This document shows, piece by piece, positions 8,926 through 54,385 of a stretch of DNA of 64,000 nt. How positions within the stretch are numbered: the stretch's first letter is position 1; every line of letters begins with the position of its first letter. Location: positions 16,581,680 through 16,645,679 of the forward strand of contig CM034536.1 in the NCBI GenBank assembly GCA_020002185.1, read 5' to 3'. The DNA is from Paraescarpia echinospica. Its lineage: Eukaryota; Annelida; Polychaeta; Sabellida; Siboglinidae. Made by a program: the position numbers and the translations under genes. Under the pieces are notes generated by a model. It worked only from the letters and a program-made list of their open reading frames with translations. It made no database searches and was not told the origin of the DNA.

Positions 8926-8975
8926 TATGGAACGATATTAGGGCCATAATTCCACAATGCTACATTGTTGATTTC

Positions 8976-9176
8976 TGACTTTCGATTATCCTTTTACGCC
9001 GAGATTGTCGAATTATGACTTTCGATTATCCCTTTACGCTGTCATTGTGCAAGATTTTTGTCAAATAATTCATTAGAATGGCGTTTGGTCAAATATTTCT
9101 CTCTCCAAAAGATTTTCTCCAAAAAATGTTCTCCAAAATATTTTCTCGAAACGAAGTTCTCGAAACGAAGTTCTCC
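8976..9176 (+). repeat. Subterminal direct repeats of the giant element
   Basis: Two copies of TGACTTTCGATTATCC followed by a TTTACGC start at 8,976 and 9,016, 40 bases apart. From about 9,095 to 9,176 there follow about six short units of the form TTCTC(C/G)AAA spaced roughly 15 bases apart. Both arrays recur inverted in the right arm (about 37,370-37,550), the second with fewer units. Subterminal arrays of this kind commonly serve as transposase binding sites; here that is only inferred. Confidence 0.7.
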
Positions 9177-9239
9177 AAACGATTATCTGGCACAAATTGG
9201 ACTCAGTGACCTAAGCTAAGCTAAGATGTGCTGCCCCCT

Positions 9240-11400
9240 AGCGAACTACACCGACTTGCAAATACTGAAGTATCCCTTGCAAGTCAGGCCAAAGCAATTA
9301 TATAATTGCTTTGGTCAGGCCTTGCTGTCAGTCACCAACGTCACGTCGTAGTGTACAGAATACTTATATGAAGCATTTTTCACCCACATTATGACCTGTT
9401 ATATCAATGTTGGAGTTTAAAAGAACTCAAAGATGAACGGAAGAAACGAAGTGCCAAGCACTGAAGCAGTCTGCCAGAAAACGCGAATTGATTGTCAAGT
9501 AGGTTGGTACTGTTTGTGAGCGATCATTCATGATGTTTCGAAAACTGTCAATACTAATATTTATTCATACTATAACGTGTACAATTAATTGAATATTATT
9601 AACGATATAGCCGAGCATCGGAACCGTGTGCCTCAGCGTTAAAGATCCGAGCATTGAACGGGCATGCGCCAGTCATCACGTGTTTGCTCTCGCTTCCGCT
9701 AAATATGGCAATAGAGCATAGCGTAGTTTTATTTGGGATCAACGTTGGCGATACGGAACATCCTTTGAAAATCACATTTTATAAACTAATTATGACCAAT
9801 AATGTATTAAGTTGTGCAATTAATTAGTTTGGCTGACTAAAAAGTATTTTTATAATATTGAATGCTATTTGACATTTTAAAACCATGCCATGCTTGTCGT
9901 CATGCAAACTGATTATTAAGTCATTTTGAACTTCTTTTGATATAGACAGAATGTATTGAACATTAGATTAAAGTTGTATTCTGACAACGTTCATCTTTTA
10001 AATACAAATTTCCAGTGAATCGTCATGCCCCATACAATACATAATTTTCAACAACTCCATATAAATTTGTGTTCACACAATATGTAATTCTAAGATCCAA
10101 ATTAAAATTACGTATGCATGTCATGTTTCTTTTTGCAAAAGCGTAATTTATCAAATAACATCAAATGCTAAAGTGACATATACGGTAGCAAGTATACTCA
10201 AATAAGTATATATTGACATTATTGTTTAGGTTGTATATATACACCTTAAACATGGTTGTGTAACTCAGAATGCAACTTTAATCTATGACGAGTAGTTTTT
10301 AACATATGACTGATAATTAAAATATAACATTTCAAATGGAGCCTGTGACCTTAAGCCAGTGGCGTTTTAAAGGTTGAATTAATATTTTCATTTGATATTT
10401 TTGAATTATTTTATTGTTAATTAAGATAGCCTAAAGTAAATATTAGATAGTCCAATTACTATTTATATGTAACGTATTTACATATATTTAAACTGGCTAA
10501 TAGGTTTATAGTGTCAGTACTTAGACACTGATGCTATTCTGCAACTGTGATTGTATTTATAGCATTACTTGACATGTTCTTTCACATATCTGTATGCACT
10601 ATTTCAATAAAATCTTCTTCTGGTGTTTCTACTCTGCTGTTGTCATAACTCATCATAACTAGTATATCATTATATGTAGAACACGTAATAGAGGCGTACC
10701 CAGGATTGATATATTTGTGGGTTCCCAAATGGGTATCACAGTAACGGTGGATGTTGCCTGCCATCATTCACTGTACACTGCTGTATAGTGGGGGGATTTC
10801 TGGGCAACGAGAAAACTCCCCTAGGCACGCACCCGCATAATAACATGAACAATAATAATAATGACTTCTTTATTTACATACATACCTATTTTACAAAACT
10901 ACTATTGCCCACACATATAGGGCCTACATTAAAATAGTTCTGTATGTCCTTGCCAATACTTATGCTTTTCGTGTAATTATGATACCATAGTTTTATTCCG
11001 TTGATATTTTGTTGGCAATTATGTGCATGTATATGCTGTAATTAGACTACACTGCTTTGAGCAATTGCTTTTACAAATTACTATAGCTATAGGTGTACTA
11101 AAAGTATATTTTATTTATAATAATATGCTTTATTCGCAGACTCCACACAACAAACAAATGCATTATTGCGTTCTATAGTTGTGATATTGGCAATAGTTAC
11201 ATATAGCCAGTAAGTAAAATATTGCTGCTACTTGAACCATCAATAAAAATATAATTTAGAACTATAACCGGCATGTAAATCTATATGTCAAAAGTTCTAA
11301 TACCAGGAACACAATAAGCAAATTACTGTAAATAAACATTTCAGTAGCACTATAATATCTGTCAAATCCTAACACCATTTGGAACATATTGTTGTAAGAG
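9240..11400. other. Left arm interior without a recognisable gene
   Basis: AT-rich sequence with one GC-rich, CpG-containing patch at about 9,609-9,720 (gccgagcatcggaaccg and a gcatgcgcc box) that resembles a promoter. A related patch is tripled at 23,829-24,075. The 61-codon ORF at 10,582-10,767 is shared with the right arm but shows no sign of selection. I see no other coding signal. Confidence 0.5.
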
Positions 11401-11639
11401 ACACATTTTCTAATAGCATATATTTATGAAAATTCCATCATAAAATAGTAAACAAAGTTTTGTTTATATCATTTGAACACATAAATGTTCTTATAATCAT
11501 GTTGCGTCGTGCAAATGACTGGCGGCATTACCGAGATAATAATAGTATATATTCAATGTATATGTTCTACTTGTCTCCAGCGCTTGGCAATGTTCTATTA
11601 ACTGACTAGTCTGTATTATTGTGGTTACAATGTAATGGT

Positions 11640-11937
11640 CTTATGAGGTCTCATTCTTTATATGCTGGCACTGAGGGTGGTCACTACCAGGGTCCTTGTC
11701 GTCCTCAGTGGTTCTTTTACGTCCCAAATTGAGACGGGACCTACATTAATGTGATCACCGAGCCACGAGGGATACACAGTCCCCAATTTTGAGAGCCAGA
11801 TTTTTACACCAAATATCATGCCTGCTCGGTCCAGGTTTCGAACTCAGAGCACTGGCATGCCAGGCGGATGTGCTAACCACTACACTAGCCACACTCTCTG
11901 TATAATTTTTTCTGCTGTTGGGATAAATAAAATGCAT
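11640..11937 (-). mobile_element. tRNA-derived SINE, left-arm copy
   Basis: On the minus strand a tRNA-like head is visible: TAGTGTAGTGGTTAGCAC (A-box-like) and, about 35 bases on, GAGTTCGAAACC (B box), then a roughly 200-base unrelated body. The same element is in the right arm at 23,372-23,640. The pol III internal promoter boxes are the basis for the call; the body family was not identified. Confidence 0.75.
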
Positions 11938-12152
11938 CCTTACCTTACCTAAAGATGGGAGGGTGTGTTTCTATATTTCATAAAAACCTTGGAGTAACAT
12001 ACACTATCGAGAGGGATGCGGGGGTACCAGCCCAGCCTGATCACAGTCCTTTCTTCTATATCATGAGCAGTCTTACTCCAAAACCACTATACTTTATCTT
12101 AGTCACATATTGAACATAAGTTGGGATAATGTCATTGTTTTTCATTTTACAG

Positions 12153-12326
12153 GTTAATGAAGAGGAGCTCAGCATGAAACTGCCGTAGAATAACATGTAT
12201 AGGGATCAGGGACGTACATGGTGGTATGCACCAACTACCCAAATTTACACTGGGGAGTCTAGAGGAATACTTATCCCAGTACGGAAAGAAGCTGGAGGAA
12301 AAGGGGAGGTCTTTATACAAAGAAAG
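12153..12326 (+). pseudogene. Exon-like segment of the SWIM/YqaJ-type gene, left-arm copy
   Basis: A segment bounded by a good acceptor (cattttacag) and donor (AAAG|gtgagt). Its translation starts VNEEELSMK and ends LEEK-x-x-SLYKER. The left copy has a TAG stop and a seven-base insertion near 12,210. The right-arm copy (22,941-23,107) is open throughout. The TLGSLEEYLSQCGKKLEEK stretch resembles the SAP-like segment before the SWIM finger in multicopy SWIM/YqaJ proteins of invertebrates. That resemblance is from memory and moderately certain. Confidence 0.55.
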
Positions 12327-12464
12327 GTGAGTTATCTTAACATTAAACTAAAAGGACTGTAGGATTAAAGATATATATGCGATTAACCACATGAGCTTAG
12401 TAGTTTGTACGTCCCTGTCAAACATGATACTGCCTCGATGAAATAATAGTTTTCTTTGTCAATG

Positions 12465-12637
12465 GATACCAGCAGGCTTATTTGTAAATTTATGTCTTAA
12501 AATGTAAGAACAAACATTCGAAACATAACAATAAATTATTCAGGATCAGTATTCTGGAATACCCTGCCTCATAAACTTAGAATACTCCTGACCATTAACC
12601 AGTTTAAAAGAAACCTAACAGCTCCTTACTCGTGAAT
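12465..12637 (+). mobile_element. LINE 3' coding tail in left arm
   Basis: The plus strand reads SGSVFWNTLPHKLRILL then INQFKRNLTAPYS and a stop. This is the usual C-terminal WN-x-LP...FKR-x-L signature of LINE ORF2. The right arm has the same tail in a longer open form (22,622-22,806, minus). It is a relic only. Confidence 0.6.
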
Positions 12638-13223
12638 TATTATTGATATTACATTATATATGTGTCTGAGTAAATATATATAGGTGAAGCACAATACTGG
12701 GCCAAAAAAGAGGACTGGACAACAAAAACAAAAAGTCTTAGATGGTAACCAAGATACATCTATACATAAAATTAAAGAAGATAAGATATCTTTACTCACT
12801 GTTATGTGGCGCAATGCCAAGTGAAGTTGATGATCTAAAATATGAGAATGTGAAACCTTTCAGAAAAAAAAAATTGCTTGACTGATGTATGCTAGTACCT
12901 CATCAGAATCCAACCAAGACTTTTAAAATGTTAAGAATGATCAGAGCACTTTGGACGTGAAATGGTGGACACTGTAACTTACGAAATGCACCACATTGTC
13001 CACAACCACAATTTTTTTTAAACAACAATAAACCGGCAAGATGCGTTTTTTTGTGTCTCTTCTTTCTTCATAGGCCTAAGATACAGCACAAATGTTATCA
13101 ACAGGAACTGTCTGCAAAGAAGCTGGTTATGGAATAAATATAGCGTAACTTACATGACACCAATTTGGCCCGGTATTGTTCGACTCCACAATTTTTTTAT
13201 ATAATGTACATTGTTTTCTTCAG

Positions 13224-13484
13224 GTTATTGCAGTATATGCGTACCACCACAGACAACACACAAGGAAAGTGGTTTGTGTCAGCTGTTATGTGGGCAGAGA
13301 TGAGGCAGTCTACCTCATAAAGTAGATGTGTCCATGAACAATGATGCGGTGGTGTAAGAAGCACAATGTGAATGTGGTGCTGGGCAGGGCCCTACAGCTC
13401 ACTGCAAACATGTTGCAGCAATTCTGTTCAGCCTGACACTACTGTCAGACAGGAACTATCTTGACAGAAGTGACATGTACACAG
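13224..13484 (+). pseudogene. SWIM zinc-finger exon
   Basis: Bounded by acceptor ttcttcag and donor ACACAG|gtaaga. The middle reads CECGAGQGPTAHCKHV followed by AAILFSL, matching the SWIM pattern C-x-C-x(n)-C-x-H. Upstream, in shifted frames, GKWFVSAVMWAEMRQS fits the sheet that precedes SWIM in this family. The end (TEVTCTQ) is again in another frame, so there are at least two indels plus a stop just before the finger. It lies just inside the centre from the left arm. SWIM fingers bind DNA or protein partners; in this family they precede a YqaJ-type nuclease. Confidence 0.75.
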
Positions 13485-13716
13485 GTAAGACGTTTAAAAA
13501 ACACGTATTTTCTGCATTCAGTGTACCATGTACAAATATTGGGGCAACTGTCAATGCACACAAAAATGGCATTTAGTTTATCCCAATTTTATACAAATAA
13601 GCTGGGTAGTTTCAAGAATGTGACATGCTCTTGTCAACATATCAGCAACAATAAATAAATGAAAGGGTTAAAATGCATATAAAATTCATAAATGTACACT
13701 TTGACTTGACCTGCAG

Positions 13717-13926
13717 GTCCTCCAGACGTTCCATCATGCTATACCTTTTAAAGAAACTCCTATCAAGTCCAGCAGATTACATGCAATTCGTGGGAAGGAC
13801 AATGCGGACCTTATATATGATCCTTGATCAGAGCAACTGCAGAACAACGACTCTACTCCAGACAGGTTCACTCTATTTGACGAAACAAATCTTACACAGC
13901 TTGTATTCCTTTTACAGACCAATTGA
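13717..13926 (+). pseudogene. Exon following SWIM (SWIM/YqaJ-type gene)
   Basis: Acceptor ctgcag, then VLQTFHHAIPFKETPIKSS and HAIRGKDNADLIYDP, after which a stop appears. These words are the linker seen between SWIM and YqaJ domains in multicopy invertebrate proteins (recognised from memory). It joins in frame with the TEVTCTQ end of the preceding exon. No clean donor was found; the exon probably ends near 13,926. Confidence 0.6.
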
Positions 13927-14029
13927 AAAATAGTTACTTGTCAAAACATGGGCATTAGTGCAGTCTCTGGCTTTATGTATAAAGCAAATAATACAATGTT
14001 GCTTATATCTCTACATATACATATTTCAG

Positions 14030-14146
14030 GAAAGTCAACCAATGCCAGTGATGCAGCTGTTCCCTCCTGCCAATCCACATGCCCTTGCCAACGACCACAA
14101 CTACTTGAAGTTAACTCCACAAGATCAGTACTTGAAAGATGAAATG
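14030..14146 (+). pseudogene. Linker exon of the SWIM/YqaJ-type gene
   Basis: Bounded by atatttcag and ATG|gttagt and fully open: QLFPPANPHALANDHNYL and LTPQDQYLKDEM. It reads on from the previous exon in the order expected for the family, just before the nuclease domain. It is one of the best preserved pieces of the gene. Confidence 0.6.
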
Positions 14147-14239
14147 GTTAGTTATTTCCATGCTTTTCAATTCAATATACATACATGCATCTGTATTTAC
14201 ACAATGTGCTCCATTGAAACAATGCATACGGTTACAATA

Positions 14240-14535
14240 GAGTGCATTGGCTCAGTGACTAGAACGTTGGACTCTCAATCAAGAGAACCCGGGTTCGAAT
14301 TCAGTGCTGCTGTGTTGAACCTTGGGCAAGTTCGTTCACTCTACGTTGCTCCAGTTCACTCAGCCGTATGAATGAGTATCTGGCTATAGACAGTGGTGGA
14401 TATTTGTGTACAAATAGCCTTTGTGCATTAATTGCGGCATGTCTGAAAGCTTCCCAGAGAAGTTGAGATGGTGCTCGATCAAACAAGTCTGCTAGGGAGT
14501 AAAGTGCTTTGAGCAGTCATCAGGACTGGATACTG
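14240..14535 (+). mobile_element. tRNA-derived SINE, second family, full copy
   Basis: The head reads TGGCTCAGTGACTAGAACG and, about 30 bases on, GGGTTCGAATTC (B box), a tRNA-like pol III promoter. The tail ends around AGTAAAGTGCTTTGAGCAG then TCAGGACTGGATA. A 5'-truncated copy with the same tail lies at 20,050-20,235. It is unrelated to the SINE in the arms. Confidence 0.75.
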
Positions 14536-15234
14536 CGTTATTATATAAGAGATTACTTTTTATAAACATTACATCGTTGCAGCACAGAGTCCAACTTACA
14601 AACCATTGTGCAATGCAGCTCTGAGCATTTCATTTGAAACTAAAATAAAACAAAATTAAAACTTGAAACAAAGAGGGGGTTTGTTGTATTGCAATTAATA
14701 TCAGACTAACTGGTGATAATACAACTATATAGCTTTTTTAAAGCTGCAATATCAGTTCGATTTTTATGCTCCTCGTTTTTCTGACTAATTTCCCAAAAAT
14801 CAAAGCTATCAAGTATCCACTATAATATCCTAGTTCATTGGTGCACTTGTGCTACTTCGTTTTGTTGAAATTAATAAACAAACTGCGAACTATTTTGAAT
14901 TTGGTTTTGAGTTGAAGGAGTCGAAACTAGCAACACTTACTTGGACATGCATCTGGAAGTGGAAACTTCATATAATAATATCGTGTTCGCGAATTTGGGC
15001 GAGACTGACCTCTGACCCTCAAGATTGGTGCCTTGATCAAGCCGTTTTTGTTGATAGTACAGTGTTCGCAAGTGTTTATACAACACGTTCTTATTTTATG
15101 GCATTTACGCCGGCGATGGGATGTTCCCGGACATATGCCACCGACTCAGCAAAAAATTGCCAAATTACGCAGACAACGACAGACAGTCAGTATTCGCGTC
15201 AGATGGTTTATTTGGGAAAAAACAGTATGGATTT
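14536..15234. other. Centre of giant element, no firm gene
   Basis: No firm gene. The stretch 15,100-15,240 reads open in more than one frame (for example MFPDICHRLSKKLPNYAD). It continues past the hAT-like MITE at 16,463, so it may be an exon cut by that insertion. I could not assign it to a family. Confidence 0.3.
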
Positions 15235-15242
15235 GTGGAACA

Positions 15243-16454
15243 CAGACCTGGGGCCGAGTACATTTTTATGAGTACTAGTACGAGTACTTTGACGATGGAC
15301 GAGTACGAGTACATTGCTAAAAGCTGAGTACGAGTACATTCTCACGAGTACGAGTACAAGTACATTTTTGTAAATATAAATATTAAATAATAACGTATCG
15401 TAAAATCGACAATTTAGTGGATCTCTCTGCAATGTAGGCATGTGGTATCACTGTCATGATATATCTAGGGGCAATATTGAGTCACCGACCAACTAGGCAC
15501 ACGTAAACCAATCATAAAATACGATTGACATTTGAGAAAAAAACTTAGCCAATCAAGTTGATATCTGTCTTTAATGATCACAAATGAGTGGGTAAAAGAG
15601 ACTGACCAGTGGATACCCCCAGCCAATCATTTGAACTTTGCTGGTTGTCTCCAGGTTAAGCATGTAAAAGAAAGCAACCAACAGGAGGATTTGTTACCTG
15701 GCACTGGCTACATGTCTTTGTTTAGCATTTCTCTTATCTCTGCTCCCTCAGTGCATGTTCTCTCTGACCTAGACTATCATGTCACATGGCTTCACTGGTG
15801 TCACACTAAGTTGGCACCGGATTATATTAGTGTAGGGTGACTTCTGACTTGAGCCACCTTACTTCTACAGAGGAAGACTGGCAGTTCTTGTTCTTAGCAG
15901 TTAGCACTGTTGGCCAGTGCCAAGTGGCATGGTCTCCAGACTACATTAAATGCATTCCCTGTCTAACAGGTGGGTTAACTGCTACTAGTAGTTGGCTCTT
16001 TATGGACATCCTGGTGGCTTGATTAAACTGTTTTATGGCCTGAACTGATAGCCTACAATTATTGTTTGCTTAACAGGGTGTTTCTGACTGGGGAAAGATG
16101 CTGCCTGTTGCCATGTTAGGGTATCATAGTCATGGACTCATGGCTATCAGAGAATGAGGATGTACTATGTGTAGGGATGGCAAGGTGGCATTCTATGTGA
16201 AATAACAAAGTATTTAAAAAAATAGTTGAGCATTTCAATATTTCAGGAAAGTTTGATTTTATAACTGCAAATAAATTAATTGTTCCCAGTATATATTGAG
16301 AAAGTACTCAGATGTACTCGTAATGTACTCGTAAAATCTGAGTACAATGAGTATGAGTACGAGTACATGACCCATAAGTTTTATGAGTACGAGTACGAGT
16401 ACTTCAAAAATGTACTCGAGTACACGAGTACCGAGTACTTCCGCCCCAGGTCTG
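15243..16454. mobile_element. hAT-like non-autonomous element (MITE)
   Basis: The ends are inverted copies of CAGACCTGGGGC, flanked by a perfect 8-bp target duplication GTGGAACA (15,235-15,242 and 16,455-16,462). An 8-bp duplication and a CAG-starting end fit the hAT superfamily. Just inside each end is an array of GAGTAC/GTACTC units (15,256-15,362 and 16,304-16,440) that could pair. The interior shows no transposase. Part of it (15,806-16,075) recurs at about 18,500-18,760. Confidence 0.85.
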
Positions 16455-16462
16455 GTGGAACA

Positions 16463-17870
16463 ACATAACTCACAAAAGAAAGAGCTGGAGTAAGACTAAG
16501 AACAGATGCTGCGTTCGCAAAACTTCTTCTAGAGAAGTTAGTAATTTCAAAGTAGTCAGCTTGAGCCACGCATATTTATTCGTATGAATATAATATTATG
16601 TTGCTTATTATGTTCACAAAACCACCACCCCTCAATACTGTGAACATTTCCATAACAATAGCATGTAGGCCTTCGTAACATGTATCGATAGCTTGCGACT
16701 GATTTATGTGAGAGAGCAGAGAAGTACCGTTACAATACAAAGAATTGCAGCCCATGTTTTGTTAAGTTACAAATCCTCTTGTACATGTAAATTATAGAAG
16801 TTCTGTTTTAGTTGTTTTTTATTTTGGTCTTTCAATTTATCAATAACATGCATTTGGTAATTTATACGTCTACATTCATACCTTTTGTAGAAAAATGTTG
16901 TAAATGTTGTTTTCCGTTTCATTTAATTAATTCACTTCATCTCACTTTGCGCGATTCAATTTAAATACAGTCAGGGTTGACAGCTAAGTTTCTGACAGGA
17001 CAGTTTACAAATTGTTTGCACGTTGATGACACTTAAGCCACAGAGGCTTCGCTTCAAGTAACATACTTTCCCAGTCAGAAACCTATAGTTAATAACCACA
17101 GTTGCAAGTAGTTGAAAGGCCGTAATAATTTTTGTTTGTTAAATCAAGCCAGGAAATCCATAATATAATGCCTTTGTTGCTCTCATAAGAGACACGACGA
17201 ACTGCTGGAATCTTCTTCTAAAGACTTACAGTGACTCAGCCAGCCTTTAGACAAGTGTAGCCAGCTTCCAGTGGCACCTTGCAGTCCAGCTAAAGAACAA
17301 AGGGGATATTGATCATTGAACAATAACAGGTGGTAATCCACCCTCTGAGTAAACAGTAGAACTTTGTGGATACTGCCAGGGGTTCACCCACTGCCAGCCA
17401 AATGTCCTCCTAATTAATTAGCAGTGTTAGATTAATGACACATTGAGACCACAACTAAGGCATTGGGTATTTTGCATGGTTTACTATTGAATTCATAAAA
17501 CTTTGTTTCGTTGAACTGTCAGTGAAAAATTGCAAAACTTTTTATTTATTTTATATTTTTCGAATAAAATTAGTTTGACTTTATTTCCTGTAACCTTCTT
17601 TCCAGCCCATCTGTGTTCTACCTGTACTTAGTTAATAAGTTGACACTTGTAAATTGTCTAGTTGTTTGTTATGTACTACACTTTTACAATATATATACAA
17701 TAATAACTTTGCCACTCTCATATCATTGTAATTGTTTCACAACTGGGCAAATGACCTTTTCACTCGCGAGTGCTGGGCAAATGACATTTGGGCAACATAT
17801 GTTTACCTGTTAATGAAATAAAAAAGTTTACAAGTTACATACCACACACATATGTAATATTATATATATA
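16463..17870. other. Non-coding centre
   Basis: AT-rich, with no convincing coding or RNA gene. The stretch 17,200-17,430 has the texture of the MITE interior repeats, but I could not define ends. Confidence 0.4.
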
Positions 17871-17872
17871 TT

Positions 17873-19062
17873 GACGGGTAGTAGTGCTGTCCCGCATATT
17901 TTGTCACATCCTAGCCCGCTGCCCGCCCCACCCCACAGTAACTTGGCCCGCAACCCGCCCCGCAGTAATTAGTCAAAAGTCAGCCCGCACCTGCCCCGCA
18001 GCCCACAAAAGATGACATGGAATCATTAAAAATATATCATCTTTATTAATCATTGTTGTTTACAATATTAACAAATGCAAGGCGCTGGGTGACAACCATG
18101 TCATACTTGGAATTCCATCTCTAAGACAAATAGAACCATTGTCATTATAATGTAAATGCCCGAAGGTGATAAGCAGACCTGGGGCAAAGTAAAGGTACGA
18201 GTACAAATTTTAACGTATTTAAAAATTATTAATTAATCTAATTGATATAATTCAGCACAAGTGAATATGCGATGGCACACTGCTGGCATTCATTTCAGTG
18301 GCATCCTATGATCTTATAATCTATTTGCCATTGTACTGCATGAACATGAGTTGTTCAAAGGGTGAGTCTGGTGCACAAAGGCAGTGTTACAATTTGCCAT
18401 CTGCTGATATTAGAAGTTTGCAATTTATATTTTCTGATCGTAGACTACTGATTGTTGAGAGGATTTTTACATGTCCATATAACAGGCTCAAAATCCCCTC
18501 TGGACCAGACTACTGGCACCGGATAATACTAGTGTAGAAGGCAGTTTGACTTGAGCCATCTGACTTCTACAGAGGAAGACTGACAGTTCTTGTTCTTAGC
18601 AGTTAGCACTGTCAGCCAGTGCCAAGTGGCAGAGTCTCCTGTCTCCACATATCAAAGGCATTTCCTGTCTAATTAGTGGTGTAACTGCTCTTTATGGACA
18701 TCCTGGTGGCTTAATTACACAAACAGATTGATGGCCTGAAGTGATACTTCCATCTGGAAGAAGCCACTAATCACACCTGCCTGAAGCTGGCAAGGCAGGC
18801 CAGCACATGTTATCATAACACTGTTTAAACACAAACAAAAGGGCAATCTGGTAATCCCCTATTAACTAGCTCAAAGAATGTCCCACCTTTGAGTAACTGG
18901 TGACCATTAATGAGTTACAAAAATCAGCCCACAGTAGCCCACATGTAGAAATTACTAGCCAGCAGACCGCCCCGCCCAAATTGAAACTTAACCCGCACCG
19001 CACTGCAACAACAACAACAAATCCAGCCCACGGGCCAAAACCCGCCCCGCGCAGGGCTTTAA
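17873..19062. repeat. Possible non-autonomous element with CCCGC-rich ends
   Basis: Two CCCGC/GCCCG-rich islands, 17,880-18,012 and 18,925-19,062, bracket about 0.9 kb of normal composition. The outer edges (tagtgctgtcccgc and, inverted, taaagccctgcgc) resemble an imperfect terminal inverted repeat in AT-rich flanks. Inside, near 18,178, is another agacctggggc hAT-like end, and at 18,500-18,760 a copy of the MITE interior. This looks like an element with another inserted in it; ends and target duplication were not secured. Confidence 0.4.
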
Positions 19063-20049
19063 TATATATAAATCATAGCATAATAATTGGAAGATATGCA
19101 AACATATGTGATTGGGTTTAACAATTATGTTTTATTCTGACTAATCTTAGGGTACTTACACCATCTTTGGTTGATAAGGCTTTTGTGAAACTTTCAATTA
19201 CATTATACATTTAATTTGCAGTTAAATTTGTTAACATAATGGTCTATTTATTTAATTTGGAATATTTATGTTGCAAACATAAATTCGTATATACAGTGCA
19301 AGTATATTCCATTAGCACCCCCTCCCCCGTCTTCCGATATCACCACTCCAGCCAAGCGGCTGAAGTTATAGTTATGGCGGCTCAGTAGCGCCAAAATTTA
19401 GACTACACCATTTGGTTCGGCCAGGCTCAATTTCTGGATCCACCCCTGTATGTGAATGTGTTGTTTGTCTGCATGAGGATTTTGCAGTAATGGGTGTCCT
19501 CTTTTAAATTGCATATTGTTGTTAGAAATGCATGTGAATTAAAGTAAAGACAATGTAAAGTACAACCATTTTATTGAAACTATTTGATAAGATTGACTAC
19601 AAAATTATGAAAAGCACAATACAACTACAGGTACAATCACTGCACTTGATGTGTATAATGTAATAATTTTTAATATCACATACACATCACATGCACATAA
19701 TATGCAAAGCAACAATAGAAACAAAAATTAGGAAGAGGTTGAAAAAATGTCAGGTACATATAAAAAACAAACAGTTATTTTATCATGATTCTTTGTTGCA
19801 AAAAAACAACACTACCGCGTAGTTAGTACATGTGATATCAAATGCTAGTTGTAGTTTATACATGCCTTATATGTTTACAACTGACAAAACAAAATTAGTG
19901 ACTAAACAATGATGTGTATTTAAAAAAAAAATTAATACCCATAAAATGTAAACCAATGAGAAAAAATTACTTACAAAGATGTTTAGTTGAACTTAAAATA
20001 GTGACTAGACTAGACAGGGTCATCCCTATGTGACTGAGAATTACATATA
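19063..20049. other. Non-coding centre
   Basis: AT-rich sequence without a gene. The bases at 19,305-19,450 (runs of C, then ggatccacccctgta) look like the end of another small element. Confidence 0.35.
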
Positions 20050-26650: not shown

Positions 26651-26654
26651 TATC

Positions 26655-26800: not shown

Positions 26801-26807
26801 TGCTGGA

Positions 26808-27425
26808 TTACAGAGGCCAGGGCTGGAGATCCGGCGGGATGACCGACGGTACTGGCTCGAGGCCATACTGCCTGCGCAGGTCTGGCGTGTCCTGGAACCG
26901 AGACAGTGCGTCCGCAATTACATTATTTTTCCCGGGAACATGTTTTGCCCTAAGAATTACATTGTTCTGCATGAGTGACACAGTCATGGTACGGATGAGT
27001 GACATGAGTTTCTTGTCTTTGCTTGTCTGACTGTTTATTACGTAAACAACAGCTTCGTTGTCACACAATACAAGAAGTCGTCTGTCAGCTAGCACCAGGG
27101 GCCACAAGCGTAATGCCAGAACAATTGGAAATAACTCTTTTATAGCAATATTGTGATTCGCCCATGAAGGTGGCCACACCCCTTGAAACCAATGACCTTC
27201 AAGTAAGCCGGCAAACCCAAACCCTGAAGCATCCGTGAACAGCTCTAGCTTTACGGAGGAATTCCATAAATCATTAAGCAGAAGTGATGTCCCATTGTAA
27301 CTTTCCAAAAACAAAGCCCAAGCGGCCAAGTCTAGGCGTGCTGCTTGCCCTAGGCGAATATGGAAATGCGGTTTGTCAATTCCGATGGTTAGATCGATTA
27401 ATCGGCGGAGAAACGGGCGTCCCAT
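26808..27425 (-). CDS. YR2 RNase H domain
   Basis: A 205-residue frame. Acidic active-site residues are all visible: LFTDASGFGFAGLL (Asp), KELFPIVLAL (Glu), VLCDNEAVVYVI (Asp) and NVIADALSRF (Asp). It begins MGRPFLRRLIDL, the usual linker after RT, and in the ancestor was continuous with the RT; a shift just upstream (27,428-27,460) now separates them. RNase H would remove the RNA strand during replication. YR1 has no counterpart. Confidence 0.85.
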   Translation of the reverse strand: MGRPFLRRLIDLTIGIDKPHFHIRLGQAARLDLAAWALFLESYNGTSLLLNDLWNSSVKLELFTDASGFGFAGLLEGHWFQGVWPPSWANHNIAIKELFPIVLALRLWPLVLADRRLLVLCDNEAVVYVINSQTSKDKKLMSLIRTMTVSLMQNNVILRAKHVPGKNNVIADALSRFQDTPDLRRQYGLEPVPSVIPPDLQPWPL

Positions 27426-27430
27426 GATTA

Positions 27431-28330
27431 TTACTTTACATGCGAAGGAAAGCGTGCCAATAAGACTTGGATTTCCCTTAAAGTAACCTTTCGACGACGA
27501 CGATAGGCCCTTACTAACTGAATTGCAGCATCCAGTTTATCCTGTGGCAGCCTAGCCTGCATCCGCACAGTGTCTATTTCAATGCCATGAACAATGACAC
27601 ACGTGGACGGAACCACGGTTTTCCTCTGATTCACAGGAATAGACAACAATTGGGCCAACGAAAAAAACTGCTGTAGGTATACATTACAGACATGTTCAGA
27701 AGGCGACAGGAAAATAAAGTCATCCAATATGTGTGACATGTATGTCACATGGAATGAGGTTTGTAGAATCCATTGCAGTGCACAGCTAAACTGCTCGAAT
27801 ATTTTGCATGATATAGCACAACCCATTGGAAGACACTTATCGTAATAGTAGTGGCCGTCAAAAGTAAACCCCAGTAGATGATAGTCATAAGGATGTATCG
27901 GCATGATTCCAAAGGCAGATTCGATATCCGCTTTGGCAATAAAGCAGCCCTGTCCTACTGTTGTTAACAACGACACAAAAAATCATAATCTTCATAAGAG
28001 ACTGAACAGAAATCTTTTGGTATACCAGATTTTACAGAATCTCCTTTTGGAAATGACAGATCGTGAATAATTCTAAATTTTCCGGGCTCTTTCTTAGGGA
28101 TGAGTCCCAGTGGTGATACCACATAATCGTGTAAATGTACTGATGTGAAGGGGCCCGCTATACGACCCAAGCCTTTTTCCTTATGAATCATATCACTGGC
28201 CACTGCAGGATTTAATAAAAGAGATGGGTGATTACATGGTATTGACCTGTGACTTAGGTCCCCCTCAAAGGGGATACGGAAACCGTCTAGAAATCCATTG
28301 ACAAGTGTGTCTGTTGCTGTGGCATCGTAA
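27431..28330 (-). pseudogene. YR2 reverse transcriptase, frameshifted
   Basis: The N-terminal half is read to 27,964 (FRIIHDLSFPKGDSV near the end). The rest is in another frame from 27,976 to 27,431 (FIAKADIESAFGIMPIHP, PMGCAISCKIFEQFS and the catalytic ILDDFIFLSP). The break is at a run of six T on the minus strand near 27,975. The frame continues upstream to 28,596 over the gag finger ORF, a proline-rich overlap typical of this group, so the true start is uncertain. Confidence 0.85.
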
Positions 28331-28997
28331 CTACTTTCGTTTAGCAATCGTCGGAGCTGGGCGGCGCAGACCGGTGTTGGGAGCCGGAGGTCTGGGGAAG
28401 GCAGGGGTTCGGCGTTTGGCTGGGCATTGTGATGGGACGTGTGGGCCATTGCAGGTGGGGCATGTGTGCTTATAGGCACATGTTGGGTATTTGCAGATCC
28501 CAGTGGCACAGAAGGCAAAACAGTAGCCGGCAGGAAAGGACTGCCGACGGGGATCTGGCTGCTTTCGTATGGGAAAGAAGGTTGGTTTGAAGACACTGGT
28601 GGCCTTACGGGTCACCTGATGATAAATTTCCGGGTGGAGATGATACAAAGGCAGACGGGTAGAACTCCACGTCCTCACCTCCCTCTGTATGCACGGGGGA
28701 AAACAGTGTGGCTGTCTCCTCCATTGCTGCCGTCGCTGCTGAACCGGCGGCTGCCGATGCTACCGGCCTCGCTGCCGGTGTTGCGGAGGCCATAGTTGTG
28801 ATGACATCACCGATGGCCTGCATCTGTTGCTGCATCAGGTTGATTTGCTCCTGCAGTGCAGCGGTGGTGATGGGCATTGGGTCCTCAATAGCCGGAGCCA
28901 CAGCGCTGGTCCCCACATCCCTCGCTCGTCTGCGGACTGGCCCAACGGTTGCACCCCCTTCGTAGCGTTTTGGCGTTTTCCGCTTTCGTGGAGGCAT
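28331..28997 (-). pseudogene. YR2 gag-like protein, frameshifted
   Basis: Start at ATG 28,997 (MPPRKRKTPKR), chosen by likeness to YR1 gag. It is basic at the N-terminus, followed by an Ala-rich helical region with a likely coiled coil (ALQEQINLMQQQMQAIGDV). The frame shifts in the overlap 28,605-28,678 and then carries the finger cluster CFAFCATGICKYPTCAYKH with CPTCNGPHVPSQC. Its role is RNA packaging of the retrotransposon. Confidence 0.75.
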
Positions 28998-29063
28998 TCT
29001 GTAACTACAGACGGACGGATCGGCAGAAACTGGCCAAACAGCCATTACAGTATAATTAATCAC

Positions 29064-29419
29064 ATTAACATATATACGTGATCAGTGTTATGTACACAGC
29101 AATTTCTTAACGCGCTCACCATAATGGCAGCATATATGCATACAGGCGGAAATGTGTACCACTAATATGTCCAATTAAAATTATAATACAGTGTTTTTGT
29201 GCACTGAACACTTTAGCTAAAATCTTACATACCGCCGGAATATAGGAACACCCTGTGAGCAGTTGTAAATGCACAAAACACCCTGAAGACAACTAAAAAT
29301 ACAGTGAAAATGTCGGACAGATGTAATGGCTGACCCAACGGTCACCAGCAACTGACCCAACGGCCACCAGCTGGGCTAAGAAAGGGCTACCATTTGAGCC
29401 GATCATAAGGATCAAAAAG
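29064..29419. other. 5' non-coding region of YR2
   Basis: No gene. The last part (29,330-29,420) already contains degenerate versions of the 37-base repeat unit that follows. Confidence 0.45.
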
Positions 29420-29660
29420 ACGGCCACCAATTGGGCTAGTCTTAAGGACCTAATCAGAAGCCACCAATTGGGCTAATCTTAAGGACCTAAACAAATGCCA
29501 CCAGTTGGGCTAATCTTAAGGACCTAAATAAATGCCACCAGTTGGGCTAATCTTAAGGACCTAAATAAATGCCACCAGTTGGGCTAATCTTAAGGACCTA
29601 AATAAATGCCACCAGTTGGGCTAATCTTAAGGACCTAAAGTAATGGCCACGGGGGGGGGG
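29420..29660. repeat. 37-bp tandem repeat
   Basis: About six units of GCCACCAGTTGGGCTAATCT followed by TAAGGACCTAAATAAAT, 37 bases each. The middle three or four are nearly identical and the outer ones diverged. The array ends at a run of about twelve G near 29,650. It lies between the SGNH ORF and YR2 gag and may be part of the YR2 leader. Confidence 0.85.
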
Positions 29661-29884
29661 GCTAATATTAAGCAGCTCATGGCAAAAACAATACCAATGA
29701 CATAGAAGAGACAGCACATACATAAATGCATGTTAAGTAGTGAACGTATCAGACAGTAGAGCAGATTGTCACTTTATGATTAATGAAAACCTGTGAATGA
29801 CAGTTAAAGAAATAGTTTGTTATTTACAATTGAGTAAAAGTAGTAGGAGGACATCCGTTTGCATAGTCTTTAACGCCAATCAAT

Positions 29885-30460
29885 TCACAGCTTATTTGCT
29901 GATGCAATGATTGCACCCCGCACGCTGTTGTAGTACTTGCGGTTACCCTCCTGGTTGAAATGAACCCCATCTAGGAGGTAATCGGCCCAATTTTTCCAAA
30001 TTCCGCGGTGACACCAAAAATCGACTTGGTCGAGGGATTCGGAAGCTTCGCGCAAATAGTTATTATACACGACAACCTTGTCGTTGAAATTATTGCAGAT
30101 ATAGTATTTAGATTGGCATGCATTGCGGAAGAACATTTGCGAAATGACAACTTTTCGCACGTCGGCCATCACAATCAAGTATATGGCGTACGCCAAAACA
30201 CTGTCCGCCAACTCAACGGGACTGGCATCGTTAATGTCATTAGTGCCGACGTCAAGAAAAATTACATCTCGACTAGCTTGTAATATAGCGGGCGTCAAAG
30301 CATACAATTGATTGACTTTAAGCTCGCCTCGCGCAACAAAGGTAACGTGTAAACGCTCAGGATTCAAATCAAGATTCAGAGAGCGATGCTCCAATGAATA
30401 TCGGGCAAGCCGTGAGACAAAGGAATGCCCGACCAGAGCGATTTCGACGCACTCCATCAT
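29885..30460 (-). CDS. SGNH-hydrolase-like protein, intact ORF
   Basis: An uninterrupted 191-residue ORF with two ATG codons at its start (30,460). Visible SGNH blocks: VGHSFVSRLARYS (block I, with Ser in a GHS context), FLDVGTNDIND (block III, G-x-N-D-like), and DGVHFNQEGNRKYY (block V, Asp and His of the catalytic set). There is no signal peptide or membrane segment. Such hydrolases occur as extra ORFs in some YR retrotransposons (Ngaro group) and, in another form, in CR1 ORF1. This one does not resemble the CR1 esterase next door. It sits between YR2 gag and the CR1 3' end, on the same strand. It is the only undamaged mobile-element-type gene in the insertion apart from the RNase H frame. 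Confidence 0.75.
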   Translation of the reverse strand: MMECVEIALVGHSFVSRLARYSLEHRSLNLDLNPERLHVTFVARGELKVNQLYALTPAILQASRDVIFLDVGTNDINDASPVELADSVLAYAIYLIVMADVRKVVISQMFFRNACQSKYYICNNFNDKVVVYNNYLREASESLDQVDFWCHRGIWKNWADYLLDGVHFNQEGNRKYYNSVRGAIIASANKL

Positions 30461-30473
30461 AGCTTATCCCTCC

Positions 30474-33405
30474 TTAATTACAAGATTTAACAAGATTTAA
30501 CAAGATTGCCATCCAGAAAATTACTCTGGATGGCAGGTGGACAAGGAAGCCTTTTGGCTTATCGAGAGTCCAATACTTTTTATCTACATGTATCCCGCCT
30601 TTTTTTAGGTGTGTGTCGATTTTATTTTTAAACATATTCACGCTACTAGCATCAACACAATCAGGAGATAATCTGTTCCATTCATTTACAGTCCTTTGTG
30701 AGAATGAGAACTTTCTTATATCTAATCTACACTGCTCCTTTACTAATGTAGCTTCATGTCCTCTGGTCCTTCTATCTTTCTTAACTGAGAAAAAAATGTT
30801 TCTATCAATATTTTCATAACCATTCAATATTTTAAACACTTCTATGTGATCTCCTCTCAATCTCCTAGTCTCTAGTGTTGTTAAACCACATTCTTTTAGG
30901 CGTATTTCGTAACTAAGATCCCTCAGATTTGGTATCATTTTAGTCGCTCTCCTCTGTACTCTTTCTAGCATATCTATGTCCTTCTTGCGATATGGCCTCC
31001 ATGCTTGTATACAATATTCTAAATGAGGCCTCACTATTGTTTTGTACAGCGGTACTATTAATTCTTTTTTTCTTATACGCTATATTTCGCCTAATTAATC
31101 CAAGGATTTGATTTCCCTTTGACGCTGCAATTCCGCACTGCTCTGAAACCTTCATATCAGCACTAATGGTTAACCCCAAGTCCTTTTCTTTTACAGTAGT
31201 ACTTAGAACAGTACCCCCCATTTTATATTTTACCTCTTCCTTGCCTTGACCTGTGTGGAGGCATTTACATTTCCCAAAATTGAACAGCATTTGCCACTTT
31301 TCAGACCATTTGATCAACCTATCAAGATCATCTTATAAATGCTGTCTGTCTCCATCACTTTTAATCCTTCTAAACACTTTTGTATCATCCGCAAATTTTA
31401 ACACCTTGCTTGTTATATCATCGTCCAAATCGTTGATATATATTAAGAATAATATAGGTCCTAGTACTAATCCCTGTGGTACCCCACTCAATACCGATTT
31501 CCAGTTTGAAGCCTCCCCATCAACTACTACACGTTGTCTTCTGTCATTCAGCCATTTTTCTATCCAGTTTATTATACCATTTCCTATGCCATGGGCCTTT
31601 AGCTTAAGGAGTAATCTTTGATGTAGTACTTTGTCGAAAGCTTTTTGAAAATCTAAATAGATGATATCTACTGGTGATCCCTCATCTACCCACCTAGTGA
31701 TGTCTTCCAAAAAACATAACATATTTGTTAAGCATGACCTCGCTTTTAAAAACCCATGTTGAGATGGGTTTATCAAGTTATGTTTAACAAGAAAATCCAC
31801 CATGTCATCTTTAATTAGTCTTTTTAATAATTTGCAAATCACTGATGTTAAACTCACTGGTCTATAGTTCTCTGACTTGTTTCTCGAACCTTTTTTAAAT
31901 AACGGTATAATGTTTGCCTCTTTCCATTCTAAAGGAACCACTCCCTCTTCTAATGACAAATTGAAAACTGTTGCAAGCGGTACGCTAATTTGTTCTACAA
32001 TTTCCAATAGTAGTTTGGGCGGAATCCCGTCCACTCCAGGTGATTTATTATCCTTCATAGCCCTTATTTTCTTAGCTACCATTTCCGAGGTTACAACTAA
32101 CTGTCCTAAATAGTCTGAATCTGCCCCCTTGAACTTAGCCTCTGGTACTGGCAGTGAACTAATATCTTCCCTGGTAAACACTGAACTAAAATACTCATTC
32201 AGGTCTTCTGCCATTAAGAATCCCTCTGATATTGTATTTCCAGCACTATCTTCTAGAGGACCGACCTTATCCTGAACTTTCTGTTTGCTTCGAATATACG
32301 CATAAAAACTCTTACTGTCATGTTTTATATTACTAGCTAATTTTTTTTCATAGCTTCTCTTTGAATTTCTAATTTCAGCTGTAGCTTGATTAAGTGCTTC
32401 TTTATAAATGTTGTAGTCTTCATCATTTCCAGTACATCTATATGACTTCCACATCATTTGTTTATACTTAATTTTTCTAATGGCTTCTTTCGATAGTGTT
32501 TCTTTTTAGACCGTTTCCCTTGTTTTTTGAAAGGTACAAATTTATCGACTATGCACTTAATTTCACTATTTAAGATATTCCAGCATTCGGTTGCTGTCTT
32601 ATTCTTCAGTGTGTTATTCCAGTCTATCTTTGCTAAATATTTCCTCATGTCTTTATACCTTCCTTTGTGGAAATTTCTCCTATACTGCTTTTTACTATTC
32701 CTTTCTGATTTTACTTTGATGGTAAAGTGTATCTGGTTGTGATCACTACTCCCCAGTGGCTCACATATCTTGACATTGTCAACTAATTCTTTCTGTGAGG
32801 ACAAAACTAAGTCTAACACATTCTCTCCCCTGGTTGGTTCTAGCACATGTTGAGAAAGGAAACTATCTTGTACTAAAACTAAAAACTTGTGGTCCTCACT
32901 CCCCATACTCTGTAGAGATTTCCATTGTATATGCCCATGGTTAAAGTCCCCCATAATAATACAGTTCCGTTTGCTTACTTCCTTTATAGCGTTTTGTATT
33001 TTTTCATTCTCTTCTATGCTTATGTTTGGACTTCGATAAACTAACCCAACTGTTAACGTTGAGTTTCCTGTAACTATGTTACACCAAACAGCTTCTTCAC
33101 AATCTGCTTCTCTTTCTAATTTTATTTCATAAGCCTGGATAGATTCTTTAATATATAAAATAACTCCACCTCCCTTTCTTCCTATTCTATCTTTCCTAAA
33201 TATTACATATCCTGTTAGTCCCAATTCGGCATCTGATATATCAGTGGTGGCCCACGATTCAGTTATACCTATTATGTGAGGGTCAATATCTTCTACCATA
33301 ATGTTTAGTTCACTTCTTTTGTTTACTATGCTCCTTGCATTTAAACAAATGCATTTATATCCTGATTCAGAACAGTTTTCCAGGCTGTTCTTTGCCGATT
33401 ATTTC
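30474..33405 (-). pseudogene. CR1 ORF2: endonuclease and reverse transcriptase, broken
   Basis: The endonuclease is read from about 33,405 (CICLNARSIVNKR) to 32,454, with TESW, GDFNHGHIQW and SSDHNQIHF. The RT runs from 32,457 to 31,333, with NYRPVSLTSVICKLLKRLI, DFQKAFDKVLHQRL, SGVPQGLVLGP and the catalytic FADDTK. The C-terminal part is read from 31,317 to 30,474. Breaks: a one-base loss near 32,495 (the copy at 1-1,198 keeps the base), a TAA stop near 31,336, and a shift at a T run near 31,065. The 3' end carries the TTAAATCTTG-type tandem tail at 30,480-30,510. Confidence 0.9.
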
Positions 33406-33462
33406 TGCTGTCTTTATCTATGCCTCCAGTTTCAGGCTTCTCTGTGAATCCCCCCTGCGAAT

Positions 33463-34653
33463 CTAGTTTAAATAGATGCAGCCTGTCCCACTGTCAACAG
33501 ATTGCAGCAAGTTCTCTGAGAAAACTGCTGCCCCCTTTCCACTTAGATGTAGGCCATCTCTCATGTACATATCTTCCCTCCCAACAAAGTATCCCCATAA
33601 ATCTACGAATCCCACCCCCTCTTCTTTACACATCTGCTCAACTAGTGCGTTGATCGCCATCCTCTTGCAGTTTCTATATGTCGGCCCCCTTCCTCCCATT
33701 ACTGGCAAAATTCCTGAGAGGATAATCTGTTCTACTCTTGTCTTCTTTAACTTCTTCACTAACTGTCTGTACTTCTGAACTATCCCAGTTGTTCCCTCCC
33801 TCTCTGCGTTATTTGTCCCTACATGTACTAGTATAGACCCTCCCTTGCCATGCCCCAGTACCTTCTCTACCCTTTCAGTTACATGTTCTATCCTAGCCCC
33901 CGGTAGACAAACAACGACGTCCTCCCCCTCGCTTAGAGTCTTATCTGTCTTTCTCATAATCGAATCGCCCATAAACACCCTCTCTTTCCTCATTGCCCCC
34001 TCAATCACTGCCTCAGTGTAGCTCTTTCTACGGTTTGCATCTGTCTGGTTGTAATCTTGTTCCCCTGTCTTCTGCTCTCCCGTCACAATCTCGTCCGTTC
34101 CATTCTTTCCTCCTGTTTCTCCACCTTTCTTCCTGTCATCGTCCTGACTTCTCTTCTGTCACATGTACTCTTTCCTTTCTTCCCGTGCATTTCCTTCTCT
34201 CCTCTCCCGTCTCTTTTTCCCTCCTACCTCTTTCTCTACGGTCACTTTCTCTCCTGCCACCTTCACACCTGTCACATTTCCTGCCGTCGATCCTCCACTT
34301 TCTTCCCCTCCGATCACCTTCCCTCCTCTCAGTCTCCTTTCCTCGGTCTTGTTGCCACTACTCTGCTCCTTCAGTTTCACAGTATTCCCAACTTTATCCC
34401 TGTCGTCTCTCTCCATTCCATCTGTCTCCTTGCTGATTCTCATCTCCATCCCCTTCACAATATCTACCAACCTAGCTACCTCTTTCTCCAGACATTTCAC
34501 CTTCCAACACCCCACGCACTGAAAGGTGAATCCCTCTTCCTTGGTTTCTGTCCATGACTTCGTACAGCCGGACAAGGCAAAATCCACCCAACTGTGGCAG
34601 TCGTCGCACACCAAGTGTCTCTTTGCCTTGACTTGCCGCTTGCAAGGCGCCAT
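33463..34653 (-). pseudogene. CR1 ORF1: PHD-like finger and esterase, one stop codon
   Basis: One frame of 397 codons, ATG at 34,653, interrupted only by a TGA at 34,159-34,161. The N-terminus has a PHD-like Cys/His cluster (VCDDCHSWVDFALSGC, later FQCVGC), then a lysine/glutamate-rich linker. The C-terminus is an SGNH esterase: VFMGDSIMRK (nucleophile Ser), VHVGTNNAE, ILPVMGGRG, and DGLHLSGKG (catalytic Asp/His). This two-domain arrangement is known for CR1-like ORF1 proteins. The ORF would encode the RNA-binding chaperone of the retrotransposon. Confidence 0.88.
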
Positions 34654-35343
34654 ATCAGAATTTATTTAATAATAATAATCTAATTAGCTATTTAAAATAG
34701 TTTTGTCAACTGTGTTTACACTATTCACTGTCTATGTAGTCTTTAAGAAGACTGTTTTCTGTGCACAAATGTTACACTTTTCGTAAGATTGCGTACGCTA
34801 GACTGCCTTATTTATTTAGGTTATACAGCGCCCTAGCGAATAAGAGAGACACTAGCTACATAAACTTAGTTCGCCCGATTATCGCAAATGCTTAATTTTA
34901 ACAATAAAGCTACCTTATCAAAATGTCTAGCAGGTACTGACTTACACAGATATTATCTTATGTAGGTAGTTTATGGTTGTTACTTTATCACCTATATATT
35001 CTACCACATAACGAGATTTGTTAAATCTTGTTTACAAACTTATCGTAGCCGTAAGTTACGGTAAATAACGGTTAGAACAACCCACGAGGAACTAACGAAC
35101 CCTACTGGGAAAATGTTATAGCGTGTCAACGCGCCTCGTAAATGTTATAACCGAAACAAATATTTATATCCGTCACAGCATAAAAAAGATTACCTTTCTG
35201 AGTAACGCGCGAATGAAAAAGAGGCCCAGCTGTTGTGGCTGGAAGAACTTGTCCCATGGTTAGGTCGGTGTACCGTACATTTCAAATATAGGCTGCAGCA
35301 ACGCCCACATAAATACCATTTGAGCTTTGATCAAATGTTGGTT
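34654..35343. other. CR1 5' region and junction
   Basis: Presumed 5' UTR of CR1, ending where the right arm resumes. The stretch 35,205-35,343 reads open on the plus strand (EKEAQLLWLEELVPWLGRC) and continues into the arm, but I do not recognise it. Confidence 0.4.
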
Positions 35344-37599
35344 GCTATTAGAAAATGTGTCTCTTACAACAATATGTTCCAAATGGTGTTAGGATTTGAC
35401 AGATATTATAGTGCTACTGAAATGTTTATTTACAGTAATCTGCTTATTGTGTTCCTGGTATTAGAACTTTTGACATATAGATTTACATGCCGGTTATAGT
35501 TCTAAATTATATTTTTATTGATGGTTCAAATAGCAGCAATATTTTACTTACTGGCCATATGTAACTATTGCCAATATCGAACACTAATGCATTTGTATGT
35601 TGTGTGGAGTCTGCGAATAAAGCATATTATTATAAATAAAATATACTTTTAGTACACCTATAGCCATAGTAATTTGTAAAAGCAATTGCTCAAAGCAATG
35701 TAGTCTAATTACAGCATATACATGCACATAATTGCCAACAAAATATAAACGGAATAAAACTATGGTATCATAATTACACGAAAAGCATAAGTATTGGCAA
35801 GGACATACAGAACTATTTTAATGTAGGCCCTATATGTGTGGGCAATAGTAGTTTTGTAAAATATGTATGTATGTATGTAAATAAAGAAGTCATTATTATT
35901 ATTGTTCATGTTATTATGCGGGTGCGTGCCCAGGGGAGTTTTCTCGTTGCCCAGAAACCCCCCAAGAAATCCCACACTATACGGCAGTGTACAGTGAATG
36001 ATGGCATGCAACCTCCACCGTTACTGTGATACCCATTTGGGAACCCACAAATATATTTATCCTGGGTACGCCTCTGTTATGTGTTTTACATATAATGATA
36101 TACTAGTTATGATGAATTATGACAACAGCAGAGTAGAAACACCAGAAGACGATTTTATTGAAATAATGCATACAGATGTGTGAAAGAACATGTCAAGTAA
36201 TGCTATAAATACAATCACAGTTGCATAATAGCATCAGTGTCTAAGTACTGACACTATAAACCCATTAGCCAGTTTAAATATATGTAAATACATTACATAT
36301 AAATAGTAATAGGACTATCTAATATTTACTTTAGGCTATCTTAATTAACAATAAAATAATTATATAATATCAAATGAAAATATTAATTCAATCTTTAAAA
36401 CGCCACTGCCTTAAGGTCACAGGCTCCATTTGAAATGTTATATTTTAATTATCAGTCATATGTTAAAAACTACTCGTCATAGATTAAAGTTGCATTCTGA
36501 GTTACACAACCATGTTTAAGGTGTATGTACAACCTAAACAATAATGTCAATATATACTTATTTGAGTATACTTGCTTCCGTATATGTCACTTTGGCATTT
36601 GATGTTATTTGATAAATTACGCTTTTGCAAAAAATAAACATGACATGCATACGTAATTTTAATTTGGATCTTAGAATTACATATTGTGTGAACGAAAATT
36701 TATATGGAGTTGAAACTAATTAATTGCACAACTTAATATATTATTGGTCATAATTAGTTTATAAAATGTGATTTTCAAAGGATGTTCCGTATCGCCAACG
36801 TTGATCCCAAATAAAACTACGCCATGCTCAATTGCCATATTTAGGGGAAGCGAGAGCAAACACGTGATGACTGGCGCATGCCCGTTCAATGCTCTGATCT
36901 TTAACGCTGAGGCACACGGTTCCGATGCTCGGCTATATCGTTAATAATATTCAATTAATTGTACACGTTATAGTACGAATAAATATTAGTATTGACAGTT
37001 TTCGAAACATCATGAATTATCGTTCACAAACAGTACCAACCTACCTGACAATCAATTCGCGTTTTCTGTCAGACTGCTTCAGTGCTTGGCACTTCGTTTC
37101 TTCCGTTCATCTTTGAGTTCTTTTAAACTCCAACATTGATATAACAGGTCATAATGTGGGTGAAAAATGCTTCATATAAGTATTCTGTACACTACGACGT
37201 GACGTTGGTGACTGACAGCAAGGCCTGACCAAAACAATTATATAATTGCTTTGGCCTGACTTGCAAGGGATACTTCAGTATTTGCAAGTTGGTGTAGTTC
37301 GCTAGGGGGCAGCACATCTTAGCTTAGCTTAGGTCACTGAGTCCAATTTGTGCCAGATAATCGTTTGGAGAACTTCGTTTGGAGAAAATATTTTGGAGAA
37401 AACTTTTTGGAGAAAATCTTTTGGAGAAATTTTTGACCAAACGCCATTCTAGTGAATTATTTGACAAAAATCTTGCACAATGACAGCGTAAAGGGATAAT
37501 CGAAAGTCAGAATTCGACAATCTCGGCGTAAATGGATAATCGAAAGTCAGAAATCAACAATGTAGCATTGTGGAATTATGGCCCTAATATCGTTCCATA
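35344..37599 (-). repeat. Right long inverted-repeat arm, outer block
   Basis: Reverse complement of 8,926-11,418, ending in the element's terminus. It contains the same subterminal repeats, CpG patch (about 36,840-36,940) and 61-codon ORF as the left arm. I see no gene in it. Confidence 0.88.
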
Positions 37600-54336: not shown

Positions 54337-54385
54337 TTATATTTTAATTATTATGCTTAGAGGTTAACGCATATCTGACACATAT

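Follow-up and report, generated by a model that had tools for sequence, protein, structure and literature searches.

An inverted-arm DNA transposon of 17.6 kb, probably of IS3EU type, with exons of a nuclease gene in Paraescarpia echinospica

A segment of Paraescarpia echinospica contig CM034536.1 (assembly GCA_020002185.1) is enclosed by very long inverted arms, which raises the question of what class of mobile element it belongs to. The original prediction, made from the letters alone, was a possible new class of giant transposon. The segment was analysed within the window, i.e., the whole stretch of 64,000 nucleotides (positions 16,581,680 to 16,645,679 of the forward strand), to which all coordinates below refer. 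As predicted, GAAGTA is repeated at the two outer edges, at 8920-8925 and 37600-37605, forming a 6-bp target-site duplication; a random 6-mer would match at a fixed offset with a frequency of 1/4096. The ends read TATGG...CCATA directly inside the GAAGTA copies, with the terminus TATGGAACGATATTAGGGCC at 8926-8945 and its reverse complement at 37580-37599. When up to 5 mismatches were allowed, the terminal 20 bases were found within the window at the two ends only. The arm-versus-arm BLAST alignment starts at TATGG on both sides and has its inner border at 13164 and 22084, so that the predicted arms of about 4.2 kb with identical termini were located: the left arm is 4,239 bp (8926-13164), and the right arm runs from 37599 to 35343 and then from 24289 to 22084, split by an 11,053-bp insert. 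The element measures 28,674 bp with this later insert and 17,621 bp without it, in agreement with the size of about 17.6 kb that had been proposed for a large DNA transposon. Its main parts are as follows.

8920..8925, no strand: target-site duplication GAAGTA, left
8926..13164, plus strand: left terminal inverted-repeat arm, starting with TATGG
9831..10051, plus strand: 221 bp present in the left arm only
13165..22083, no strand: unique interior, without a transposase domain in six frames
22084..24289, minus strand: right arm, inner part
23695..24140, no strand: 446 bp present in the right arm only (a 449-column alignment gap)
24290..35342, minus strand: later right-arm insert of 11,053 bp, presumably a DIRS-like YR retroelement plus a CR1-like LINE
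35343..37599, minus strand: right arm, outer part, ending in CCATA
37600..37605, no strand: target-site duplication GAAGTA, right

The great length of the inverted repeat might point to an assembly or inverted-duplication artefact. However, the arms differ by 3.6% (142 mismatches in 3,955 gap-free in-arm columns), each has a private segment, the numbers of 14-bp units described below are unequal, the 11-kb insert lies in one arm only, and the whole is flanked by a target duplication; an artefact is thus hardly credible. Because of the 3.6% divergence and the private indels, each arm must have had its own evolutionary history, which makes an assembly duplication very unlikely as their source. 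The inverted-arm structure is real.

Subterminal repeat arrays had also been predicted, and they proved to be real, with 40-bp and 14-bp units at both ends.

8962..9183, plus strand: left subterminal arrays, 40-bp unit in 2.2 copies and 14-bp unit in 5.9 copies
37355..37561, minus strand: right subterminal arrays, 14-bp unit in 5.4 copies and 40-bp unit in 1.9 copies

The 40-bp unit is present in about two copies per side. The 14-bp unit has six copies on the left, the first of them a variant, and five on the right, which matches a 14-column gap in the arm alignment. A perfect palindrome, GCAATTATATAATTGC (9294-9309), lies some 370 bp inside the left end, within a longer imperfect hairpin, and its right-arm counterpart has one change. 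Other repeats lie farther inside the element: a SINE-like related pair at 14240-14532 and 20063-20235 (72% over 14341-14532 and 20063-20235) and a direct-repeat pair, 78% identical, at 15812-16050 and 18514-18746. The SINE-like copy at 14240-14532 has tRNA-box-like motifs by eye, with no tRNA from ARAGORN, which returned nothing in the window; Rfam at gathering thresholds likewise gave no match in the window.

Three open reading frames (ORFs) lie on the minus strand of the left flank. Two of them have matches under the Pfam cutoff, one weakly to a tyrosine recombinase (E 0.018) and the other, just under the cutoff, to a reverse transcriptase (E 9e-7); the third, of 531 residues, has no Pfam match. 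We take these ORFs to be a DIRS-like retroelement. Locus searches of viral_contigs gave no relative for the reverse-transcriptase ORF of this left element, nor for P0011. When the flanks are joined, the minus strand reads ACCATG right after the duplicated 6 bp, placing an ATG 3 bp from the duplication. The predicted retrotransposon flanks are borne out as far as an adjoining retroelement is concerned; the flanks may formerly have been one continuous retroelement leader, as was also proposed.

Within the insert of the right arm, one part has a recombinase-like ORF (E 4e-4, under the cutoff) together with reverse-transcriptase, RNase H, and GDSL-esterase matches and is presumably a second DIRS-like element; a further part has an endonuclease, a reverse transcriptase, and another esterase, and we take it to be a CR1-like LINE. 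The target duplication of the insert is 0 to 1 bp by comparison with the left arm, which has no interruption at 11418, and a duplication of at most 1 bp is expected for recombinase-mediated insertion. The GDSL-esterase ORFs lie at 29885-30463 and 33463-34158, one in the DIRS-like part and one in the CR1-like part, and the insert has a 37-bp tandem array (29423-29639, 5.9 copies, 96% matches). Two CR1-like LINE stretches of the window, 1-2373 and 30486-32936, are related, being 77 to 92% identical. Elsewhere, direct repeats at 54385-54563 and 59424-59602 (97% identical) surround integrase and reverse-transcriptase ORFs and are probably the short long terminal repeats of a Gypsy-like element, with 40-bp tandem units.

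The coding capacity of the element was assessed by Pfam six-frame scans of the interior and the left arm, the right arm being covered through its homology to the left arm. Neither of the two scanned regions showed a transposase, integrase, or hAT domain; hAT6 elements also make 6-bp duplications. The left-arm scan was empty. The interior gave a weak SWIM match (E 0.069) and, on its minus strand, sub-threshold matches to XPG_N (E 0.24) and YccF (E 0.99), and an ORF of the right-arm-only segment matched zf-IS66 (E 0.078); the XPG_N, YccF, and zf-IS66 matches were taken as chance. Pfam could have missed a transposase that is diverged and split by introns. No exact match to the terminal 20-mer was found in viral_contigs or in genome_contigs, and a search of the phages collection with the first 500 bases of the element gave no match.

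According to the available part of PMC10045372, TA..TA ends are invariable in complete IS3EU/GingerRoot families, which usually show 6-bp duplications as well, and the rust-fungus families described in the corresponding part of PMC12730594 combine TAYGG..CCRTA ends with 6-bp duplications and terminal inverted repeats (TIRs) of over 30 bp. The present element has GAAGTA at both edges, observed in one copy, and its TATGG..CCATA ends fit both TA..TA and TAYGG..CCRTA; by arithmetic, TAYGG occurs at a given end by chance with a frequency of 1/512. Since the length of the duplication and the form of the ends are published IS3EU marks (PMC12730594 and PMC10045372, each in part), the idea of a new class is not upheld. 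Because neither a transposase nor a Polinton domain was detected in the interior or left arm, the element is most likely a nonautonomous one that has decayed. A nonautonomous copy would be expected to show no transposase domain, so this result weighs neither way on membership in IS3EU. We conclude that it is probably a decayed, nonautonomous cut-and-paste DNA transposon of IS3EU type, with membership resting on the ends and duplication of one copy, that is, on structure rather than on an enzyme. Arms of 4.2 kb would be unusual for IS3EU, given the short TIRs in the available parts of the published reports (over 30 bp in rust fungi and 36 bp in Styx). In the proposed mechanism, a DDD/E transposase of IS3EU type, provided in trans, would recognise the ends, and perhaps the subterminal repeats, and would cut at TATGG/CCATA, and the element would then be joined at a 6-bp staggered cut beside the DIRS-like retroelement gene. 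Later, the arms would have diverged and the 11-kb retroelement composite would have entered the right arm.

The weak SWIM match led into a gene fragment that the original prediction did not mention. Its exons are as follows.

12153..12326, plus strand: exon A, left-arm copy, broken by a stop and with 7 bases more than the right copy
13222..13487, plus strand: exon B, SWIM zinc-finger motif, with an in-frame stop at 13355 and frame changes
13714..13869, plus strand: exon C, with one in-frame stop and an approximate 3' limit
14024..14152, plus strand: exon D, with an approximate 3' limit
22941..23107, minus strand: exon A, right-arm copy, an open reading frame with splice signals intact

A query made from the SWIM stretch, with X at stops, matched 13 of 1,133 candidate proteins at an E value of ≤0.01. 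Of these 13, 9 had a precomputed YqaJ domain and three were mollusc-named (Lottia, Gigantopelta, and Mercenaria); the closest named relative was Gigantopelta LOC121381032, with 70% identity in the SWIM part. By tblastn, exon A was located in each of the two arms, and exons B to D lay in the interior. The 13 proteins were combined with 113 more from the best 120 of 271 matches, and the resulting 126 relatives were used as tblastn queries with a limit of E 0.1. Exon B was matched by all 126 relatives, exon D by 118, exon C by 71, and exon A by 40 in its right copy and 23 in its left copy. GT/AG signals were present at the donors of A and B, at the acceptor of the right-arm A, and at the acceptors of B, C, and D. 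From 14153 to 22083, no match started with the 126 relatives at E ≤0.1; 19 alignments that start in exon D extend beyond 14160, the furthest to 14338. The YqaJ nuclease domain occupies residues 284 to 426 of the Gigantopelta protein, and neither this domain nor the SAP part was found in the element by tblastn. Matches outside the gene piece, at 33712-33999 (E 0.081) and 41196-41336 (E 0.015), and, at a looser limit, a 10-residue nuclease piece of the Gigantopelta protein at 43116-43145, outside the element (E 0.33), were taken as chance. By eye, the intron 3' of exon A contains a remnant at 12555-12632 in the left arm that resembles the C terminus of a LINE reverse transcriptase. What is new at this locus is the presence of exons of a SAP-SWIM-YqaJ nuclease gene inside the element with their introns retained. 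Since the introns were kept, the gene piece entered as genomic DNA and not as a processed copy. The fragment is dead, with stops in exons B and C and frame changes in B.

The position of exon A bears on how the arms arose. On the left side, the gene continues from the arm, where exon A lies, over the arm border into exons B to D; on the right side, exon A and part of its intron stand alone. Because exon A is continuous with B to D on the left only, and because the right arm ends in the same intron, the left arm would have served as the template for the right one as far as the intron, e.g., by template switching during gap repair. The 4.2-kb arms may thus have grown after or with the acquisition of the gene; most simply, the element already contained the gene piece when the left arm was copied to form the right one. 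With the unequal decay of the two copies of exon A, this suggests a sequence of gene piece, then arm copying, then decay. The presence of an exon in both arms also suggests, by analogy with Galileo, that internal sequence was copied to lengthen the arms. Identity is 97.4% in the outer arm part (to 11986; 73 mismatches in 2,800 columns) versus 94.0% in the inner part (11987-13164; 69 in 1,155), with a Fisher p of 7e-7, and the lower inner identity could reflect stepwise growth or partial later conversion. More tentatively, there may be a lineage of giant IS3EU transposons that collect genomic gene pieces and lengthen their arms by end-to-end copying, and this copy would have caught a nuclease-gene exon in the course of becoming a terminal inverted repeat.

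The captured gene allows another reading, in which an intact giant IS3EU-type element encodes the SAP-SWIM-YqaJ nuclease as an accessory protein and the present copy has arisen from such an element by internal deletion. As a variant of the IS3EU reading, this alternative has a probability that overlaps with that of the preferred explanation. A YqaJ-domain protein is the second ORF in most autonomous ISL2EU candidates, according to the available part of PMC4482050, and SWIM-YqaJ proteins occur in several molluscs, with more than one in Gigantopelta, Mercenaria, and Argopecten among the best 120 of 271 matches. However, no nuclease or SAP part was found in the element by tblastn, and ISL2EU itself has AT duplications and GG ends (PMC4482050, same part). 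The word YqaJ is absent from the IS3EU papers searched by word, the literature search found no paper joining YqaJ, SWIM, transposon, and terminal inverted repeats, and among the literature matches listed, no title or abstract start combined IS3EU with YqaJ. We consider an accessory nuclease doubtful. Less probable again is that the element is a DNA transposon from a superfamily not yet described, sharing 6-bp duplications and TATGG ends with IS3EU by coincidence. The lack of a transposase in the interior and left arm and the arms, which far exceed the IS3EU TIRs in the available published text, are compatible with this, but the five terminal bases fit TAYGG at 1/512 per end and the length of the duplication fits too. 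A Polinton/Maverick would account for the 6-bp duplication, the long arms, and the size, but it is highly improbable, since polymerase, integrase, ATPase, protease, and capsid domains were all absent from the Pfam six-frame scans of the interior and left arm (a gutted copy being possible) and the ends are TATGG, whereas Polinton/Maverick ends are AG..CT; on both the missing Polinton genes and the non-AG ends, the original prediction was correct.

Three further candidates were rejected. A composite of two inverted small elements was dismissed because no second TATGG end is present in the window, and ISL2EU was dismissed because it needs a 2-bp AT duplication and GG ends (PMC4482050, available part), here replaced by GAAGTA and TATGG. 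Dada was rejected in view of the long TIRs and the target beside a DIRS-like gene; in the part of PMC3706591 available, Dada-U6 and Dada-U1 lack terminal inverted repeats and Dada inserts into small RNA genes.

With the decayed IS3EU-type transposon as the preferred reading, the locus has several implications. If the assignment is true, IS3EU elements can be more than 17 kb long, have arms of 4.2 kb, and carry intron-containing gene pieces, and arm growth of the Galileo type extends to another superfamily. Among known systems, Pack-MULEs are similar to the present element in being nonautonomous and carrying an intron-containing gene fragment but differ in their 9-bp duplications and Mutator ends. 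The remaining comparisons are limited to the available parts of the papers cited. ISL2EU is also a DNA transposon associated with a YqaJ-domain protein; its TIRs are 6 to 259 bp, with the AT duplication and GG ends given above, and the gene fragment found here is without the YqaJ domain (PMC4482050). Styx, an IS3EU-related element of Zymoseptoria, shares the 6-bp duplication and is described as having acquired two additional coding sequences, and one of its copies, with a nonfunctional integrase, has been reported as the source of a new insertion, but it has a 36-bp TIR, is about 7.9 kb long, and resides in a fungal host (PMC10853768). The IS3EU/GingerRoot families share the 6-bp duplication, the TA..TA ends, and the TAYGG..CCRTA pattern, whereas here the arms reach 4.2 kb, against over 30 bp in rust fungi, and no transposase was seen in the interior and left arm (PMC10045372, PMC12730594). 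Galileo and Foldback-like elements differ in that Galileo belongs to the P superfamily, has 7-bp flanking sequences, and has TIRs of at most about 1.26 kb in Drosophila mojavensis (PMC3573991). Their long, internally repetitive TIRs nevertheless extend by recruiting internal sequence, have unequal numbers of tandem units between the two ends, and are longest in the nonautonomous copies, which lack a transposase (PMC3573991), and the parallel with the arm growth proposed here is close.
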